Positions 1,627 to 32,951 of a stretch of DNA of 64,000 nt are shown here, in pieces. The notes under the pieces were generated by a model that saw only the letters and a list, made by a program, of their open reading frames with translations, was not told the DNA's origin and searched no databases. How positions within the stretch are numbered: the first letter of the stretch is position 1; each line of letters begins with the position of its first letter. A program made the translations under genes and the position numbers. This DNA is from Tamlana sp. 2_MG-2023 (GTDB taxonomy: Bacteria > Bacteroidota > Bacteroidia > Flavobacteriales > Flavobacteriaceae). The DNA lies in NCBI RefSeq assembly GCF_030548465.1, contig NZ_JAUOSF010000002.1, positions 124,001 through 188,000 of the forward strand, given 5' to 3'.

Positions 1627-4600
1627 ATGAAACAAAACTTACAAACATTTTTCTTGTTTTCTTTTCTATTATTTGCTGTTCAATTTTCGTTTGGACAAGA
1701 GAAGGAAATAAAGGGAACAGTAACTTCAAAGGCGGATGGGATTCCGTTACCAGGAGTTAATGTTACGGTACAAGGTACTACTAACGGTGCCCAAACAGAT
1801 TTTGATGGACATTATTCACTTACAGTGAATTCAGGTGACGTTTTAGCCTTTTCTTATTTAGGAATGACAACTAAATTAATTACAGTAGGGCAGCAAGACG
1901 TAATTAACGCACAGCTAGAAGAAGATGCGGAAGAGCTTAAAGCTGTTGTAGTTACGGCTTTAGGTATTAAAAAGGAGCGTAAAGCACTTACTTATTCGGC
2001 ACAAGAAGTTGGTGGGGATGAGTTAACGCGTGTTAAGCAAACCAACCCTATTAATAGTTTATCTGGTAAGTCTGCCGGACTTACAATCTCAAGAAGTTCT
2101 TCTGGTTTAGGAGGTGCTACAAAAGTAGTATTAAGAGGTAATACGTCTACAACTAATAACGATCCGTTATATGTTATTGATGGTATTCCAATGCTAAACA
2201 GTGGTAATGGTTCTAACGGAAATGAGCCAGGTACTGATATTTTTGGTAGCCAAACTGGTAACCGTGATGGTGGTGATGCGATGTCGTTAATTAACCCGGA
2301 TGATATTGAAAGTATGACTGTTTTAAAAGGAGCTTCGGCTTCAGCACTTTACGGAAGTCAAGGTGCTAATGGTGTAATTTTAATTACTACTAAAAAGGGT
2401 AAGGAAGGATCATTATCTGTAAACTTTAATTCTAGTTTTACTGTTGATAATGTGATGTCATTACCTGAATTACAATCGGAATACCAAAGTGCTTCAGTAG
2501 GTCAACCAATTGCTGAAAATGGTCGTGTTGCCGATGCTAAATCTTGGGGTGCTAAAGCTAGTAACTTAAGTAATGATGCTCACGATTTCTTTACTATGGG
2601 GTATACGGCGATTAATGCATTATCATTAACTGCAGGAAACCAGAAAGCTCAAACTTATTTCTCTTACGCAAATACTTTAGGAGAAGGGGTTATTCCAGGC
2701 AACAATTTAAAGCGTAACAACTTTACTTTACGTGAAACTGCTAAATTTTTAAAAGATAAAATTGATGTTTCTGCTAACATTAATTTATCAGATCAACGTA
2801 TTAGTAACAGGCCAACAAATGGTTTGTACTCGAATCCATTAACTGCTGTTTATTTACAACCTGTTGGAATTGATAGAGATATTTATAAAAATAAATTTGA
2901 ATATTTCAATGCGAATTTGAACCAAATGGATCAATATGCTTCATCTTTTGATGAGAATATTCAGCAAAATCCATACTGGTTAATTAACCGCAACCCTAGT
3001 GAAGATATCGTTCAACGTGTTTTGGCCAACGTATCGGTTAAATATCAAATTACAGATGCATTCTCTTTACAATCTAGAGGAAGTTATGATAAAACATTTT
3101 TCACTTTCGATAAAAGACAATATGCAGGAACAGATCCAGTAAACTCTGGAGATAACGGACGTTATGTTTTAGAAAAAACAGAAAACACACAACAATACAT
3201 AGACTTTATTGCTTCTTATAATAAAGATTTCTCTGAAGCTGTTACATTCACTGGACTTTTAGGAACTAGTTTAACAAAGTATCAAATTGGAGATCAAACA
3301 TATTTAGATTCAGGTCGTGATGGCGCTGGATTAAATTACCCGAATGTATTTAATATCGCAAACTTTGCAAATACAAATAACATAAGACAGTCTGTTGGTA
3401 ATAGAGAAGTACAATCTGTTTTTGGATCTGCAAACTTCGGGTTTAAAGATATGCTTTTCTTAGATGTTACAGGACGTACCGATTGGTCTTCAACATTAGT
3501 GAACACAGATTCGAATTCGTTTTTCTACCCATCTGTTGGTTTAACTGGTGTTTTAACTGAAATGTTTGATATGGGTGAAGGTATTTCTTTTGCTAAAGTG
3601 AGAGGATCTTATGCTGAAGTTGGTAAAGATATTCCAGTGTATGCGACCATTCCATTAAACACAATAAATAATACAAATACAGGGATAGGTACTGCTCCTT
3701 TTGCTCCTATAGAAGGTGAAACGCTTCAGCCAGAACGTCAAAAAGGATTTGAAGTTGGTACAGAATGGCGCTTTTTTGGAAACCGTTTAGGTCTTGATTT
3801 TACATACTATAACACAAAAACTGAAAATCAAATATTTTACATTCAAGCAGCTCCTAATCCTAATGGGTATTCTCAAAACATTGTAAATGCTGGTGAGATT
3901 TCTAGTGATGGTATTGAATTAGTATTAAACGGTAAACCAATTGTTAGTGATAACTTTAAGTGGAATACCTTTATAAACTTTGCACAAAACAATAACAAAG
4001 TGGTGGCTGTACACCCTTCATTACAAGATGGAGAAGCTATTGTTACTGCACGTGGTGTTAATGGTTACGAATATGCACTTATTGAAGGAGAAGATTTTGG
4101 TAGTATTAAAGCGCGCTCACTAGTTAGAGATGAAAATGGTACTCCAGTTATTAGTTCTACAGGAACTTTAATGTCTACAGATTTTGAAACTGTTGCACAT
4201 GCACAACCAGATTTTACACTAGGATGGAACAACAGTTTCGAAATAGGAGACTTCCATGTAAACTTCTTAATCGATGGTAAATTTGGCGGAGAAGTGATGA
4301 GTGTCACTGAAGCTGTAAATGATAAATACGGTGTGTCTCAAACTACTGCAAATGCAAGAAACACAAACGGAGGTATGGTAAATGTTGTTGACGAAAATGG
4401 TGCAAGTTCACAAATAACGGCACAGCAATATTACGCTGCTATTGGAGGTAGAGATGGTATGTTAGGAGAGTATGTTTACGATGCTTCGAATGTAAGTTTA
4501 AGAGAACTTTCAGTAGGGTATAAGTTAGAATTAGGTGAAAGTGATTTTATCGACAATATTAACTTTTCAGTAATAGCAAACAACCTTTTCTTTTTCTATA

Positions 4601-27139: not shown

Positions 27140-28180
27140 TCACCCACCGTAAACCCTATTTTCTTGCTCATTTACTCTAATAAAAGTAGTACGTTTAGTA
27201 AGCTCTTTTAATCGAGAAGCACCAACATAGGTACAAGTACTTCTTAACCCCCCTAAAATATCTTGAATGGTGTTTTCAACTGGACCCTTATATGGAACTT
27301 CTACTGTTTTTCCTTCGCTTGCCCGGTATTCAGCTACACCACCAACATGCTTTTCCATGGCAGTAGCCGAGCTCATACCATAAAACTTTTTAAAGACTTC
27401 TCCGTTTTTTTCAATAATCTCTCCGCCACTTTCGTCATGTCCAGCTAACATGCCTCCCAGCATCACAAAATCGGCTCCAGCACCAAAGGCTTTTGCAATA
27501 TCACCAGGTGTGGTACAACCACCGTCACTAATAATTTGACCTCCTAATCCGTGAGCAGCATCAGCACATTCAATAATTGCAGAAAGTTGCGGGTAACCAA
27601 CCCCTGTTTTTACACGTGTTGTACACACAGAGCCTGGTCCAATACCTACTTTTACAATGTCTGCTCCCGAGATTAATAACTCTTCCACCATTTCACCAGT
27701 AACCACATTACCAGCTATAATTATCTTATTAGGAAATTGAGCTCTTGTTTTACGAACGAATGCTGTGAAATGTTCTGAATAACCATTGGCAACATCGATA
27801 CAAATAAATTTTAACTCAGGTAGAACTTCAAACACTTTAGATAGCATTTCAGTGTCCTTTTCACTCGTTCCAGTGCTTACAGCAATATAGTTTTCAATAC
27901 CAATTGGGGCATTTTCAGTAAAAATTTTCCAATCTTCTATTGAATAATGCTTATGAATAGCTGTGAATATGTGTTTTTCAGATAAAGCTAAGGCCATTTC
28001 AAAAGTACCTACTGTATCCATATTAGCAGACATTATTGGAATTCCAGACCAAGTTAAAGTGCTATGCAGAAATTTAAATTCGCGTTCTAGACTTACTTCC
28101 GATCGACTCTTCAAAGTTGACCTTTTAGGTCTTATCATAACATCTTTAAACCCTAATTTAATATCGTATTCAATTCTCAT
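27140..28180 (-). CDS. guaC: GMP reductase
   Basis: A 346-residue IMPDH/GMPR-family barrel, which reduces GMP to IMP with NADPH in purine salvage. It starts [20 protein letters not shown] and lacks the CBS domains of IMP dehydrogenase. The catalytic loop [19 protein letters not shown] carries the active-site Cys (about 184), and [26 protein letters not shown] matches the GMP-binding region. Length and loop fit GuaC (E. coli 347) better than GuaB. It faces the ABC ATPase gene convergently and is divergent from the hybrid kinase gene. Confidence 0.95.
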
Positions 28181-28310: not shown

Positions 28311-29720
28311 ATGAGGGTAGCTCCAAAATTCTTGAAATCAATTAAAATTAGGTACAAACTATCGTTTATGATTTCATTAAGTATATTGTCTATTCTTATT
28401 ATTGGATTTCTTTTTCTTGAGAAAAAAATATACATAGAAAGTGCTGCTGGAATTTTATTCGTAATTGCTGTTTTTCAAGTGTTCGGACTACAATATTTTT
28501 TTAAAAATCAATTAAAAAATGATGTTGTTAAATCTAACTTAGAATTTCGTGTTGATGAGTTAAAACGAAATTTAGATATTGCAGAAACAGTCGCCGATCA
28601 AAAATCTATTTATTTGGCTAATATGAGTTACGAAATTCGTACGCCATTAAGCACAGTTTTGGGGATGTTAAACATGTTGAAGGAGGCCAATTTAGAGTCT
28701 GACCAATTAGCCGAAGTTGAAATTGCTGAATACTCTTCCCTGCATATCTCTCAGTTGGTTAACATGATTGCCGATAATGCCGTAGTTGAACGTGGGAAAT
28801 TTAAGTTAAACCTTAATGCAATCGATTTAAAAGCAGATTTGTTGAAGCTTTTAAAAGTATTCGAATTTCAAGCTTTAGAAAAGGGATTGGCTTTTGAATA
28901 TAAATTTCTTTCGGAAAATGACGACAAGTTTTTGGTGGTAGCCGATTCTGCTAAAATTCAACAGGTATTAATTAACCTCATTAATAATGCCATTAAGTTT
29001 ACGAATTCGGGAAAGGTTACTGTTACTATTGATCAAACTATCGGAGCAGACGATAGTCTTTTTTTAACGTTTTATATTAAAGACACAGGTGTTGGTATGA
29101 GTCACGACGAAGTGAAATTCTTATTCAATAACAAAAACGATTTATCAAAATCTAATTTATTACGTGATTATAGAGGTGGGGGCATCGGACTTTCAGTTTC
29201 GCATAAGCTTGTGGAGCTTATGGGAGGAGAATTAAAAATAGAAAGTAAAGAGAATGAAGGTTCTACATTTTATTTTAGTTTACAGCTAAAAAAGACTTTA
29301 AACATTAAAAGTGACTTGGCAGAACCTAAGCCTATTATTTTAAACAAGCTAAATGTTCTAGTAGCTGAAGATAATAGAACAAATCAAAAGGTTATAAAAG
29401 CGCTTTTGGAACGACAAGGTGCCGATTGTACTTTTGTTAAAAATGGTTTAGAGGCGGTAGAGTTGTATAAAATTTTAGATTTCGATTTAATCTTCATGGA
29501 TATTTACATGCCTGATATGGATGGTTATGAAGCAACAAGGCTCATAAAATCTACGAACAAATATGCCCAAAAAAACACACCTATCATCGCGGTTTCCGCA
29601 AGTGCTTTTGAGGAGGACATTATAAAGGCTAAGGAAGCCGGTATAGATGATTTTTTGGCCAAACCTATTGAAGTTATTAAACTAAAAGAATTATTAATCA
29701 GTTATTCAAATCTAAATTAG
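28311..29720 (+). CDS. Hybrid sensor histidine kinase-like protein with Tyr at the phospho-acceptor site
   Basis: A 469-residue membrane protein. Two hydrophobic segments (about 20-60) anchor it with little periplasmic sequence. A HisKA-like domain follows, then a HATPase domain (N-box LINLINNAIKFTNSG, G-box DTGVGMS, and GGGIGLSVSHKLVELMGG), then a C-terminal receiver with AEDN, phospho-acceptor Asp in IFMDIYMPDMDG (Asp397), AVSAS and FLAKP. The H-box reads NMSYEIRTPL where the family has NMSHEIRTPL: residue 107 is Tyr (TAC, 28629-28631). Normal autophosphorylation on His is therefore impossible, while the ATPase and receiver sites look intact. Caulobacter DivL is a known precedent for Tyr at this site. 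It is monocistronic, with its own promoter. Confidence 0.93.
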   Translation: MRVAPKFLKSIKIRYKLSFMISLSILSILIIGFLFLEKKIYIESAAGILFVIAVFQVFGLQYFFKNQLKNDVVKSNLEFRVDELKRNLDIAETVADQKSIYLANMSYEIRTPLSTVLGMLNMLKEANLESDQLAEVEIAEYSSLHISQLVNMIADNAVVERGKFKLNLNAIDLKADLLKLLKVFEFQALEKGLAFEYKFLSENDDKFLVVADSAKIQQVLINLINNAIKFTNSGKVTVTIDQTIGADDSLFLTFYIKDTGVGMSHDEVKFLFNNKNDLSKSNLLRDYRGGGIGLSVSHKLVELMGGELKIESKENEGSTFYFSLQLKKTLNIKSDLAEPKPIILNKLNVLVAEDNRTNQKVIKALLERQGADCTFVKNGLEAVELYKILDFDLIFMDIYMPDMDGYEATRLIKSTNKYAQKNTPIIAVSASAFEEDIIKAKEAGIDDFLAKPIEVIKLKELLISYSNLN

Positions 29721-29730
29721 ATAACTCAAT

Positions 29731-29761
29731 TTATTGCACTACTGCTATTTGACTGCAATAA
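29731..29761. terminator. Weak hairpin between convergent hybrid kinase and ridA
   Basis: TTATTGCA (29731-29738) pairs with TGCAATAA (29754-29761) around a 15-base loop that includes the ridA stop codon. There is no T-run on either side, so this is a weak candidate. Confidence 0.3.
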
Positions 29762-30125
29762 CGCTAATTTCGACGTTAACGTCTTTTGGTAAACGAGCCA
29801 CCTGTACTGTTTCACGGGCTGGAGCAATTTGATCATCAAAATAACTTCCGTAAACTTCATTTATTTTTTGAAAGTCATTCATATTACTTATAAATATTGA
29901 AGACTTAATGACGTTTGAAAAATTCATGTCAGCGGCTTTTAAAATAGCAGCAACATTTTTCATAACCTGTTCTGTTTCAGATTTTATATCATCTAATACA
30001 AGTGCTCCAGAAGTTGGGTTAATAGCAATTTGACCAGAAGTATATAATGTATTTCCCGTTAAAATAGCTTGATTATAAGGGCCTATAGGAGCAGGTGCGT
30101 TTGGAGTTGTAATAATAGTTTTCAT
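29745..30125 (-). CDS. RidA-family reactive enamine/imine deaminase
   Basis: A 126-residue RidA (YjgF/YER057c/UK114) protein, which hydrolyses reactive 2-aminoacrylate-type imines made by PLP enzymes. From the ATG at 30125 it begins MKTIITTPNAPAPIGPYNQA, the normal start of the family; a further-upstream reading only adds 12 unrelated residues. Family signatures are GNTLYTSGQIAINP and the C-terminal ARETVQVARLPKDVNVEISV with the substrate-binding Arg. It follows lptD by 54 bases on the same strand. Confidence 0.95.
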   Translation of the reverse strand: MKTIITTPNAPAPIGPYNQAILTGNTLYTSGQIAINPTSGALVLDDIKSETEQVMKNVAAILKAADMNFSNVIKSSIFISNMNDFQKINEVYGSYFDDQIAPARETVQVARLPKDVNVEISVIAVK

Positions 30126-30179
30126 ATAGATGTTTTTAAAACAGTTAGGGAACGAATTCAAACAATATAATTTAACGTA

Positions 30180-32951
30180 TTATAGGTTGATATCCGGTTG
30201 TCTACGTTTTTCGTATTTAAGATCTTGTAAGATACTCGATTTAATTCCAATAAAGAAATTCCATGATTTATAATCCCCAAAAGGTGTCCAGCTAAAATTC
30301 ATACGCCAGCTTAATAAATCACGTTCAAAACGCAGTTGCGTTGGAGTGAATCCTAAGTTTTTGAAATCATAACCAGAAGATGCCCCAATAGTCCATTTGT
30401 CTGTTAACTGAATATCTCCAGAAAACATTAAGGAATGTGATGATATTTCATTTTGCCTTTGCGAATTGGAGTAGTTTACTGCGTATGCAAGCCTTAAGCT
30501 CCAAGGTATTTTATGACGATAAAATTCTGAGGGTTCCTTTTCTTCATCTTCATTATCATTAGACTTTTGTTTAGTAGCAAAATCTTCAGAAACACCGAAT
30601 AAATCATCATCACGACCGCCGCCACGTAAATTTTCATCTATATTTTTATCCGTTAAACCATCTTCAGCGGCGCTTCTGCCTTTGTTGGAAAGCGACCAGC
30701 TAGCAGTTAAATTACCGCTTGTTAGTCTAAATAAGCTGCCTCCATTATCAATATTGAATTTTTCAATTCTTTTATTGTTGTTATCTAAAGCATAAGGGTC
30801 TAAAGTTGCGCCAAAGTTAATGCTAAGTTGATTTTTAAAGAGTTGCGTACCACCACTCATACGTACTGGACTCCATTTTAGAGAATCTCCTGCAACATTA
30901 TAGGAGGTTGAGAAGTTTAAGTTATTTAGTAATACAACCTTTTTCGCTTCAGTAGCCGTACTGTCTTTATCACGTACCTTAGCTTCTAAATTATTAGAAA
31001 GCGTTAACCCTACAGCACTTGAAAAGGTTTTATTGGGCTGTCCAAAAATACTGTTTTCAAATCGGGTATATTCAACGTCTGCACTTGTGTTTCCATCGGC
31101 ATCAACAACTTCATAAGTATCATAATATTGGTCAAAAGATGGGTTAATGTTATAGCTTATCGATGGTCTCATTACATGCCTAATAGCCTTAATTTTGCGA
31201 TCTTCGCCTTCCTTTTCAAAATTAAACATACCATAAACAGTTGTTCCCATACTGGTGCTAAAGTTATAGGTTCTAAACGAGTCAAACCCATTTACATCTT
31301 CTTCAACTTCCTCTTCATTAACTGAATCGTAGTATTTGTTTACGGTTTTAAAAGTCCAAACCTCATTATAACTAGAACCAGCACTTAAACTAAAATATTT
31401 AAATAGTTTGAAATTGGTTGTTAAAGGTATGGTATGTTGAAAACCAGCTCTTGCTTCATCCCACATTTCTTTTTTGAAGAATAAAGAATCTGTTGTTTCA
31501 ATTCTATTTTCACCTCGTAAATTGTACTGTAAGTTAATGTTTTGAATGATACCTTTCTTTGATCCTGATTTTGAGGCAAACGGATACATTCTACCTACAC
31601 TTCCTTGAAAGGTTGGTAAAGTCATATTTATAACTTCTGTTTGCGAATTTTGGGAATGCGTGGCAGTTACACTATAATTTACTTGCGGCTCACCTTGGAA
31701 GGTTTTTGAATATGAAACTGAAGAGGATAATGTGTTGTTTAAACGATTACTTACGTTAACTTGATTATTTGATATTTGGTAATACTGACTACTACCTAAG
31801 TTAACAGAAGCTGAAAATCGAGAGCTAGGGTTGGCTTTAGAGTCTTGACTGTGCGACCAACGTAAGTTATAAATTGTACTACTTGCGTAATCAGGAAAAC
31901 CACGTTCGCTTGAAATTATATTTTCATATCGAAAGCCAAAATTACCTCTATATCTATAGCGTTTCGCATAACTGCTTTCTAACCGAACCGCATAACTTCC
32001 ATTCGTATAATAATCTCCTAAAACAGTTAAATCGATATAATCACTCACTGCGAAATAGTACCCCCCGTTTTGTAAAAAGTACCCTCGATCACTTTGTTCA
32101 CCAAAAGTAGGAATGATAACACCAGAAGTTTGCTTGTTACTTTGAGGAAAGAAACCAAATGGTAAGCCTACAGGGGTTGGTACATCATATATAAAGATAT
32201 TGGCTAAGCCAGTAATGATCTTTTTTCCAGGTACTATTTTAGCCTTTCTTAATTTAATGTAATAATCTGGATCTTCAAGATCTTGAGCTGTTGTGTATTT
32301 AGCGTCTTTCACAAAATAAACAGAATCGTTTTCCTTTTTTGTGATTTTAGAGATAACGGTTCCTTCACCTTGTTCGGTCTTGGAGTTATAAATAAGCGCT
32401 TTTTTCGATTTAGTGTTAAAAAGAATAGAATCTGGTTCAACAACATTACTACCCTGAGTAAACACTGGTTTTTGTGTATAACCACCTAGAGAATCGGTAA
32501 TACCTTTAGCGTAAACGGTGTTTTTTACATAGTCGATTGTGATATCGCCTGCCGTAATGTTCATGTCTCCATAAACAATTTTAGCATCATTATACAGATA
32601 TAATTTATGCTCTTTTTGGTTGAATTTAGAGTAATCTTCAGCGTGATAATTTACGATGTGTTCTAAAAAATCTTTTTTAGGTTTAATAGAATCTGTAAAG
32701 GTAGAGTCTTGGGCTTTTTCAGAAAGTTCGGTTGTAGCAAGGCTATCAATAGACACGACGGTGGTATCTCTTTCAGCAGGATCGATAACTTTACGGTCAA
32801 TTTTTTGTTCCTTTTTAGGGATGTCTTGAGCGAAGCTAAACGTGTTGATAAACACTGTAAAACTTAGTGCAAAAAGTATTTTAAAGTTGTTTGTACGCAA
32901 CGCTTTTAAATGTATTTTTGTAACGGAATGGCTCGGTTTTTGAAAAGCCAA
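30180..32951 (-). CDS. lptD: LptD-like LPS assembly outer-membrane protein
   Basis: A 923-residue outer-membrane protein of the Bacteroidota LptD type. A signal peptide (NNFKILFALSFTVFINTFSF then AQ) is followed by an OstA/LptA-like jelly-roll (about 95-260, KLYLYNDAKIVYGDMNITAGDITIDY) and a large barrel with a FFIGIKSSILQDLKYEKRRQ C-terminal region. It inserts lipopolysaccharide into the outer leaflet. No ATG is available upstream of the signal peptide. TTG at 32951 is the longest start and TTG at 32900 gives a shorter, more regular signal peptide. A TAnnTTTG match (TAATTTTG) overlaps the 32951 TTG, favouring 32900 if that promoter is real. Divergent from the amidase gene. Confidence 0.9.
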   Translation of the reverse strand: MAFQKPSHSVTKIHLKALRTNNFKILFALSFTVFINTFSFAQDIPKKEQKIDRKVIDPAERDTTVVSIDSLATTELSEKAQDSTFTDSIKPKKDFLEHIVNYHAEDYSKFNQKEHKLYLYNDAKIVYGDMNITAGDITIDYVKNTVYAKGITDSLGGYTQKPVFTQGSNVVEPDSILFNTKSKKALIYNSKTEQGEGTVISKITKKENDSVYFVKDAKYTTAQDLEDPDYYIKLRKAKIVPGKKIITGLANIFIYDVPTPVGLPFGFFPQSNKQTSGVIIPTFGEQSDRGYFLQNGGYYFAVSDYIDLTVLGDYYTNGSYAVRLESSYAKRYRYRGNFGFRYENIISSERGFPDYASSTIYNLRWSHSQDSKANPSSRFSASVNLGSSQYYQISNNQVNVSNRLNNTLSSSVSYSKTFQGEPQVNYSVTATHSQNSQTEVINMTLPTFQGSVGRMYPFASKSGSKKGIIQNINLQYNLRGENRIETTDSLFFKKEMWDEARAGFQHTIPLTTNFKLFKYFSLSAGSSYNEVWTFKTVNKYYDSVNEEEVEEDVNGFDSFRTYNFSTSMGTTVYGMFNFEKEGEDRKIKAIRHVMRPSISYNINPSFDQYYDTYEVVDADGNTSADVEYTRFENSIFGQPNKTFSSAVGLTLSNNLEAKVRDKDSTATEAKKVVLLNNLNFSTSYNVAGDSLKWSPVRMSGGTQLFKNQLSINFGATLDPYALDNNNKRIEKFNIDNGGSLFRLTSGNLTASWSLSNKGRSAAEDGLTDKNIDENLRGGGRDDDLFGVSEDFATKQKSNDNEDEEKEPSEFYRHKIPWSLRLAYAVNYSNSQRQNEISSHSLMFSGDIQLTDKWTIGASSGYDFKNLGFTPTQLRFERDLLSWRMNFSWTPFGDYKSWNFFIGIKSSILQDLKYEKRRQPDINL

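Follow-up and report, generated by a model that had tools for sequence, protein, structure and literature searches.

Pseudo-histidine-kinases are known from few cases, foremost among them DivL of Caulobacter and other alphaproteobacteria, in which Tyr occupies the phospho-acceptor position and is conserved across orthologues. DivL shows neither kinase nor phosphatase activity; it binds a phosphorylated regulator and controls CckA, and its Arg553 is required for docking of DivK~P (PMC4211667). Changing its Tyr to His leaves regulator binding intact and harms the cell (PMC4211667). CCNA_03265 (CC3162), also of Caulobacter, is a hybrid kinase without the conserved His that keeps its receiver Asp (PMC11481889). 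The hybrid kinase RetS of Pseudomonas carries two receivers besides its sensor domain. It acts on a second kinase, GacS, through direct contact, binding and inhibiting it (PMC12189002).

Here we describe a putative pseudo-histidine-kinase of another phylum, encoded in a 64,000-nucleotide stretch of the genome of Tamlana sp. 2_MG-2023 (the window). The open reading frame lies on the forward strand at 28311-29720, runs from an ATG start to a TAG stop and encodes 469 residues. Pfam places HisKA (PF00512, residues 98-153), HATPase_c (212-327) and a C-terminal receiver (Response_reg, PF00072, 349-461) above their cut-offs in one chain, the layout of a hybrid histidine kinase. The phospho-acceptor His expected of a HisKA-class hybrid kinase is missing: the H-box reads NMSYEIRTPL, with Tyr107 (TAC, 28629-28631) in place of His. 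Among the residues after it, Glu108 and Arg110 never vary and Thr111 hardly does. A sequence-only reading of the window had already pointed to this Tyr, correctly as to frame, strand, coordinates and residue.

The N-terminus consists of two transmembrane helices (residues about 13-66, 28347-28508) joined by a loop of about five residues, as judged from hydrophobicity by eye and from the AlphaFold helices 13-36 and 42-124. No sensor domain is present, and with these two helices and the short loop alone, the sensor has probably been lost. A signalling coiled coil (67-97, 28509-28601), fast evolving and a continuous helix in the AlphaFold model, leads into the DHp helices (98-160, 28602-28790; extent from Pfam and the model). 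Pfam found no PAS domain in the protein, and no named NCBIfam family came close to its cut-off. AlphaFold predicts normal DHp, CA and receiver folds (mean pLDDT 79.7, pTM 0.50) with an unresolved lid, in a domain arrangement too unreliable for interdomain contacts to be read from it.

With DivL the protein shares the Tyr, a membrane-anchored HisKA DHp-CA core and the conserved Arg at acceptor+3, Arg110 matching Arg553. Whereas DivL has several PAS domains, no receiver and all boxes including F (PMC4211667), the Tamlana protein is anchored by two transmembrane helices, lacks PAS domains, ends in a receiver and has a degenerate ATP lid. By these differences it is no orthologue of DivL, nor is DivL its nearest match among solved-structure sequences, where it scores E 4e-15 behind many other kinases. 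The nearest solved structures are ShkA, GacS, HK853 and RetS; DivL is at rank 49. RetS, unlike the Tamlana protein, keeps its His in the alignment, and CCNA_03265 belongs to a different phylum. The nearest His-bearing paralogues, the same-family, sensor-bearing hybrid kinases L032, L153 and L154, are 41-44% identical over kinase and receiver; they are longer, at about 750-800 residues, by an N-terminal extension, have a canonical F box and G2 as well as the His, and lie at another locus.

We assembled 72 non-redundant orthologues from relatives, 399 family genomes (49 of which hold a match at a strict threshold) and named genome contigs. They occur in Flavobacteriaceae, in Tamlana, Algibacter, Flavivirga, Mariniflexile, Seonamhaeicola, Gaetbulibacter and other genera; the closest named relatives are Tamlana species, the T. 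agarivorans I2M19 protein being 91% identical. The sequence-only reading had proposed such an alignment and would have given up its case on finding His in close relatives and a base that was misread or recently mutated. Tyr occupies the acceptor site in 60 orthologues from related marine bacteria and His in 12, with no other residue at this position. Glu108 and Arg110 are the same in all 72. All five other searched genomes of the window's genus carry Tyr (one copy split by a transposase), and the His-bearing orthologues, that of Gaetbulibacter sp. 4G1 for example, are confined to more distant genera. A sequencing error or recent mutation at Tyr107 is ruled out by these counts.

We searched 300 family genomes with a DNA pattern of the NMSYE-type H-box, narrow enough that Tyr H-boxes with different flanking residues would escape it, and obtained 27 matches. 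Twenty-six lie within the orthogroup and the remaining one in an unrelated outer-membrane-type protein, so the motif is not a wider phenomenon of the family. In the split copy, that of genome G004 (L031, about 2561-3811), the gene is interrupted by a transposase of IS4-like type. Each half retains some 80% identity to the window protein; the loss is therefore recent and the gene dispensable there.

At least 13 switches between TAT and TAC can be counted for the Tyr codon across the tree, whose Tyr rows total 15.1 substitutions per site in length, and none of them changed the residue. Once gained, Tyr has been kept without exception among the orthologues. dN/dS lies between 0.013 and 0.095 in all domains with measurable dS, values that are rough for single domains, several of which have a high or saturated dS. 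These sequences show Tyr to be fixed, with purifying selection acting on it.

The change itself probably happened at least three times. Three H/Y changes are required on the quick tree and four on the careful one, and a single Tyr clade is rejected (p-AU 0.0007, in a test of groups that had been seen beforehand, on trees with some weak backbone branches, which leaves the exact number of changes unsure). Since the outgroup paralogues have His, the simplest history is of three or four His-to-Tyr changes: in the large clade with the window, in the pair G160/G349, in G237 and, on the careful tree, in G338/G142. The early-branching G160 and G349 encode longer proteins of 670-675 aa at the same locus (L165 from 7251 onward and L164 from 6722 onward, respectively). 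These combine a Tyr H-box with a canonical GGTGLGL, and their N-terminal extension resembles a periplasmic helical sensor with a HAMP-like region.

The ATPase domain is partly eroded. The N box QVLINLINNAIKFT (residues 218-231, 28962-29003) and the G1 box DTGVGM (258-263, 29082-29099) keep Asn222, Asn226, Lys229, Asp258, Gly260 and Gly262 in 72 of 72 orthologues. Between G1 and a G2-like GGGIGL (289-294, 29175-29192, placed by the orthologue alignment) lie a degenerate F box and ATP lid (265-288, 29103-29174), with no FxxF and, ahead of G2, an Arg where Gly is usual. The lid has the highest mean site rate of all parts of the protein (1.89), and pLDDT drops below 50 at residues 276-289. Its mean identity, the lowest of all parts, is 47%, against 98% in a control from the same eight species, a TPR-type hybrid kinase with the H-box THELRTPL; the most conserved block in this comparison is the C-terminal part of the CA domain. 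The set of N, G1, F and G2 boxes expected of a HisKA-class hybrid kinase is incomplete. The sequence-only reading, to which the ATPase boxes had looked intact, was right about N and G1 and about the greater part of G2; the alignment, the site rates and the control kinase contradict it for the F box and the lid.

Even the members that bear His show a changed lid, with Arg or Lys before G2, so the lid change probably preceded or accompanied the loss of His. In two fast-evolving Tyr members, L149 (G183) and L137 (G064), part of G2 is also gone (SSQVKRMGLNI and NNHTISGLGLSV, respectively), the furthest stage of ATPase decay in the set.

The receiver (residues 348-462, 29352-29696) has fared differently. 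Its median site rate, 0.12, is the lowest of all parts, and Glu353, Asp354, Asp397, Ser429 and Lys451 are invariant in all 72 orthologues, which bears out the earlier view of it as intact at Asp397 and Lys. Its mean identity is 82%, against 88% in the control kinase over the same eight species. By PF01627, a profile that a divergent Hpt could escape, we detected no Hpt protein in the host genome G000 or in 8 of 11 relatives, three of the 11 having a match. A normal relay from the receiver is for this reason doubtful. The host genome holds numerous hybrid-kinase-like matches, 28 to the Tyr107 protein, without a PF01627 Hpt; hybrid receivers in this host may work without an Hpt relay.

The protein keeps the histidine kinase fold, has lost the phospho-acceptor and has conserved this loss over evolution, features expected of a pseudo-histidine-kinase, a class whose members would also show no autokinase activity in vitro. 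We lean, with moderate confidence, towards a membrane pseudo-histidine-kinase that acts through its receiver and through binding to a partner kinase, by analogy with DivL or RetS. Such a protein could not autophosphorylate on His and would start no phosphorelay. Its receiver would be phosphorylated by another histidine kinase, or dock with one, or take phosphate from a small-molecule donor; the body of transmembrane helices, coiled coil, DHp and CA, as a homodimer or heterodimer, would relay the state of the receiver; and the relayed state would consist in altered binding to and control of the partner kinase, as with DivL or RetS. Both the pseudokinase proposal of the sequence-only reading and its comparison with DivL stand at the level of 'works like': the fixed Tyr, the purifying selection and the intact receiver support a predicted function, and DivL would be a convergent analogue, not a close relative. 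Three points count against this explanation. The invariant N box and G1 make ATP binding and some catalysis possible, the gene was lost to a transposase in one congeneric genome, and the conservation of Thr111 fits a phosphatase equally well.

The main rival is indeed a dedicated phosphatase or phosphate sink, in which the DHp motif Glu108-x-x-Thr111 would dephosphorylate the protein's own receiver or a regulator and so drain a pathway. We regard it as a serious but rather doubtful option. Glu108 is invariant in 72 of 72 orthologues, and the ExxT phosphatase motif retains its Thr111 in 57 of 60 Tyr rows, against 7 of 12 His rows; Ile replaces it in the other three Tyr members, which goes against the proposal. 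Residues 111-112 change from TP to IP repeatedly, in His and Tyr rows alike, and TL or TS occurs in Tyr rows only. In EnvZ, a change of the acceptor His to Tyr reportedly leaves notable phosphatase activity. The conserved His enhances EnvZ phosphatase activity and is not required for it, and a His mutant of CrdS retains reduced activity (PMC3510030); it is this dispensability, together with the mostly kept Glu108 and Thr111, that makes the phosphatase the main rival. The GacS receiver loses phosphate through RetS (PMC12189002); DivL, however, has Tyr and is without phosphatase activity (PMC4211667). The lid is a further difficulty. To act as phosphatases, HisKA proteins usually need a CA domain that is ordered, and the lid of the Tyr107 protein is degenerate.

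Improbable, in our estimation, is a half-active heterodimer partner, whose CA domain would bind ATP and phosphorylate a partner kinase in trans, on the partner's His, the protein's own Tyr being unable to take phosphate. The invariant N box and G1, the invariance of most G2 residues and the strong conservation of the C-terminal CA part would suit it. Against it, conservation is lowest in the F box and lid, on which the holding of ATP depends, and G2 is altogether lost in some members (L149, L137). We give still less credence to a tyrosine autokinase in which Tyr107 itself is phosphorylated. That Tyr arose at least three times and is invariant once gained could be taken as a sign of it, and the first report on DivL, by Wu et al. 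in 1999, is said to have claimed tyrosine kinase activity; the degenerate lid argues against it. Later work, moreover, found no autokinase activity in DivL (PMC4211667). A sequencing error or decaying gene, for which the transposase in G004 could be cited, is refuted by the orthologues, 60 of them with Tyr, with codon turnover without replacement, low dN/dS and an invariant receiver, and we dismiss it.

Returning to the membrane pseudo-histidine-kinase, we tentatively suggest, as a possibility we would not rate highly, that it is a reverse-flow signalling device, in bacteria where no Hpt relay is detectable. Input would enter at the receiver, from a foreign kinase, and output would leave through the dead body, to control a partner kinase; the parallel changes from His to Tyr at one locus would then reflect selection for Tyr itself, beyond the loss of His. 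A Tyr-bearing pseudo-histidine-kinase is already known from DivL, and the present lineage differs in phylum, domain plan and lid. In the library searched we found no paper on this lineage, and no direct precedent among papers on EnvZ H243Y and on degenerate hybrid kinases in Bacteroidota. If our explanation is right, DivL would be joined by a second Tyr lineage, convergent with it, from a different phylum and with a receiver attached. With sisters that keep His at this locus, and with His-to-Tyr changes that happened several times in parallel, the lineage would provide natural before/after pairs, in which one could ask why a dead kinase prefers Tyr, a question also raised by DivL.

Nearly all orthologues occupy one chromosomal site. 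Genes for RidA and LptD adjoin, mostly together with a guaC-like gene; in the window these neighbours, named by sequence resemblance, all lie on the reverse strand: an IMP dehydrogenase/GMP reductase-like (guaC-like) gene upstream (27140-28180) and, downstream, a RidA-like gene (29745-30161) and one for an LptD-like outer-membrane protein (30180-32951). A canonical kinase as the ancestral occupant of the site finds no support in 12 genomes of other genera, where RidA and LptD are adjacent and the kinase is absent from the stretches read. Judging from these 12 genomes, the kinase gene was probably inserted once, in an ancestor of the group. On present comparisons the Tyr107 proteins are best read as small hybrid pseudo-histidine-kinases of the membrane that form a family tied to one locus and so far undescribed. 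The spacing at the site varies in Tamlana sp. I1 (L098): RidA lies about 1.4 kb further from the kinase than in relatives, and an extra open reading frame for a small lipoprotein-like protein is found near the gap between them.
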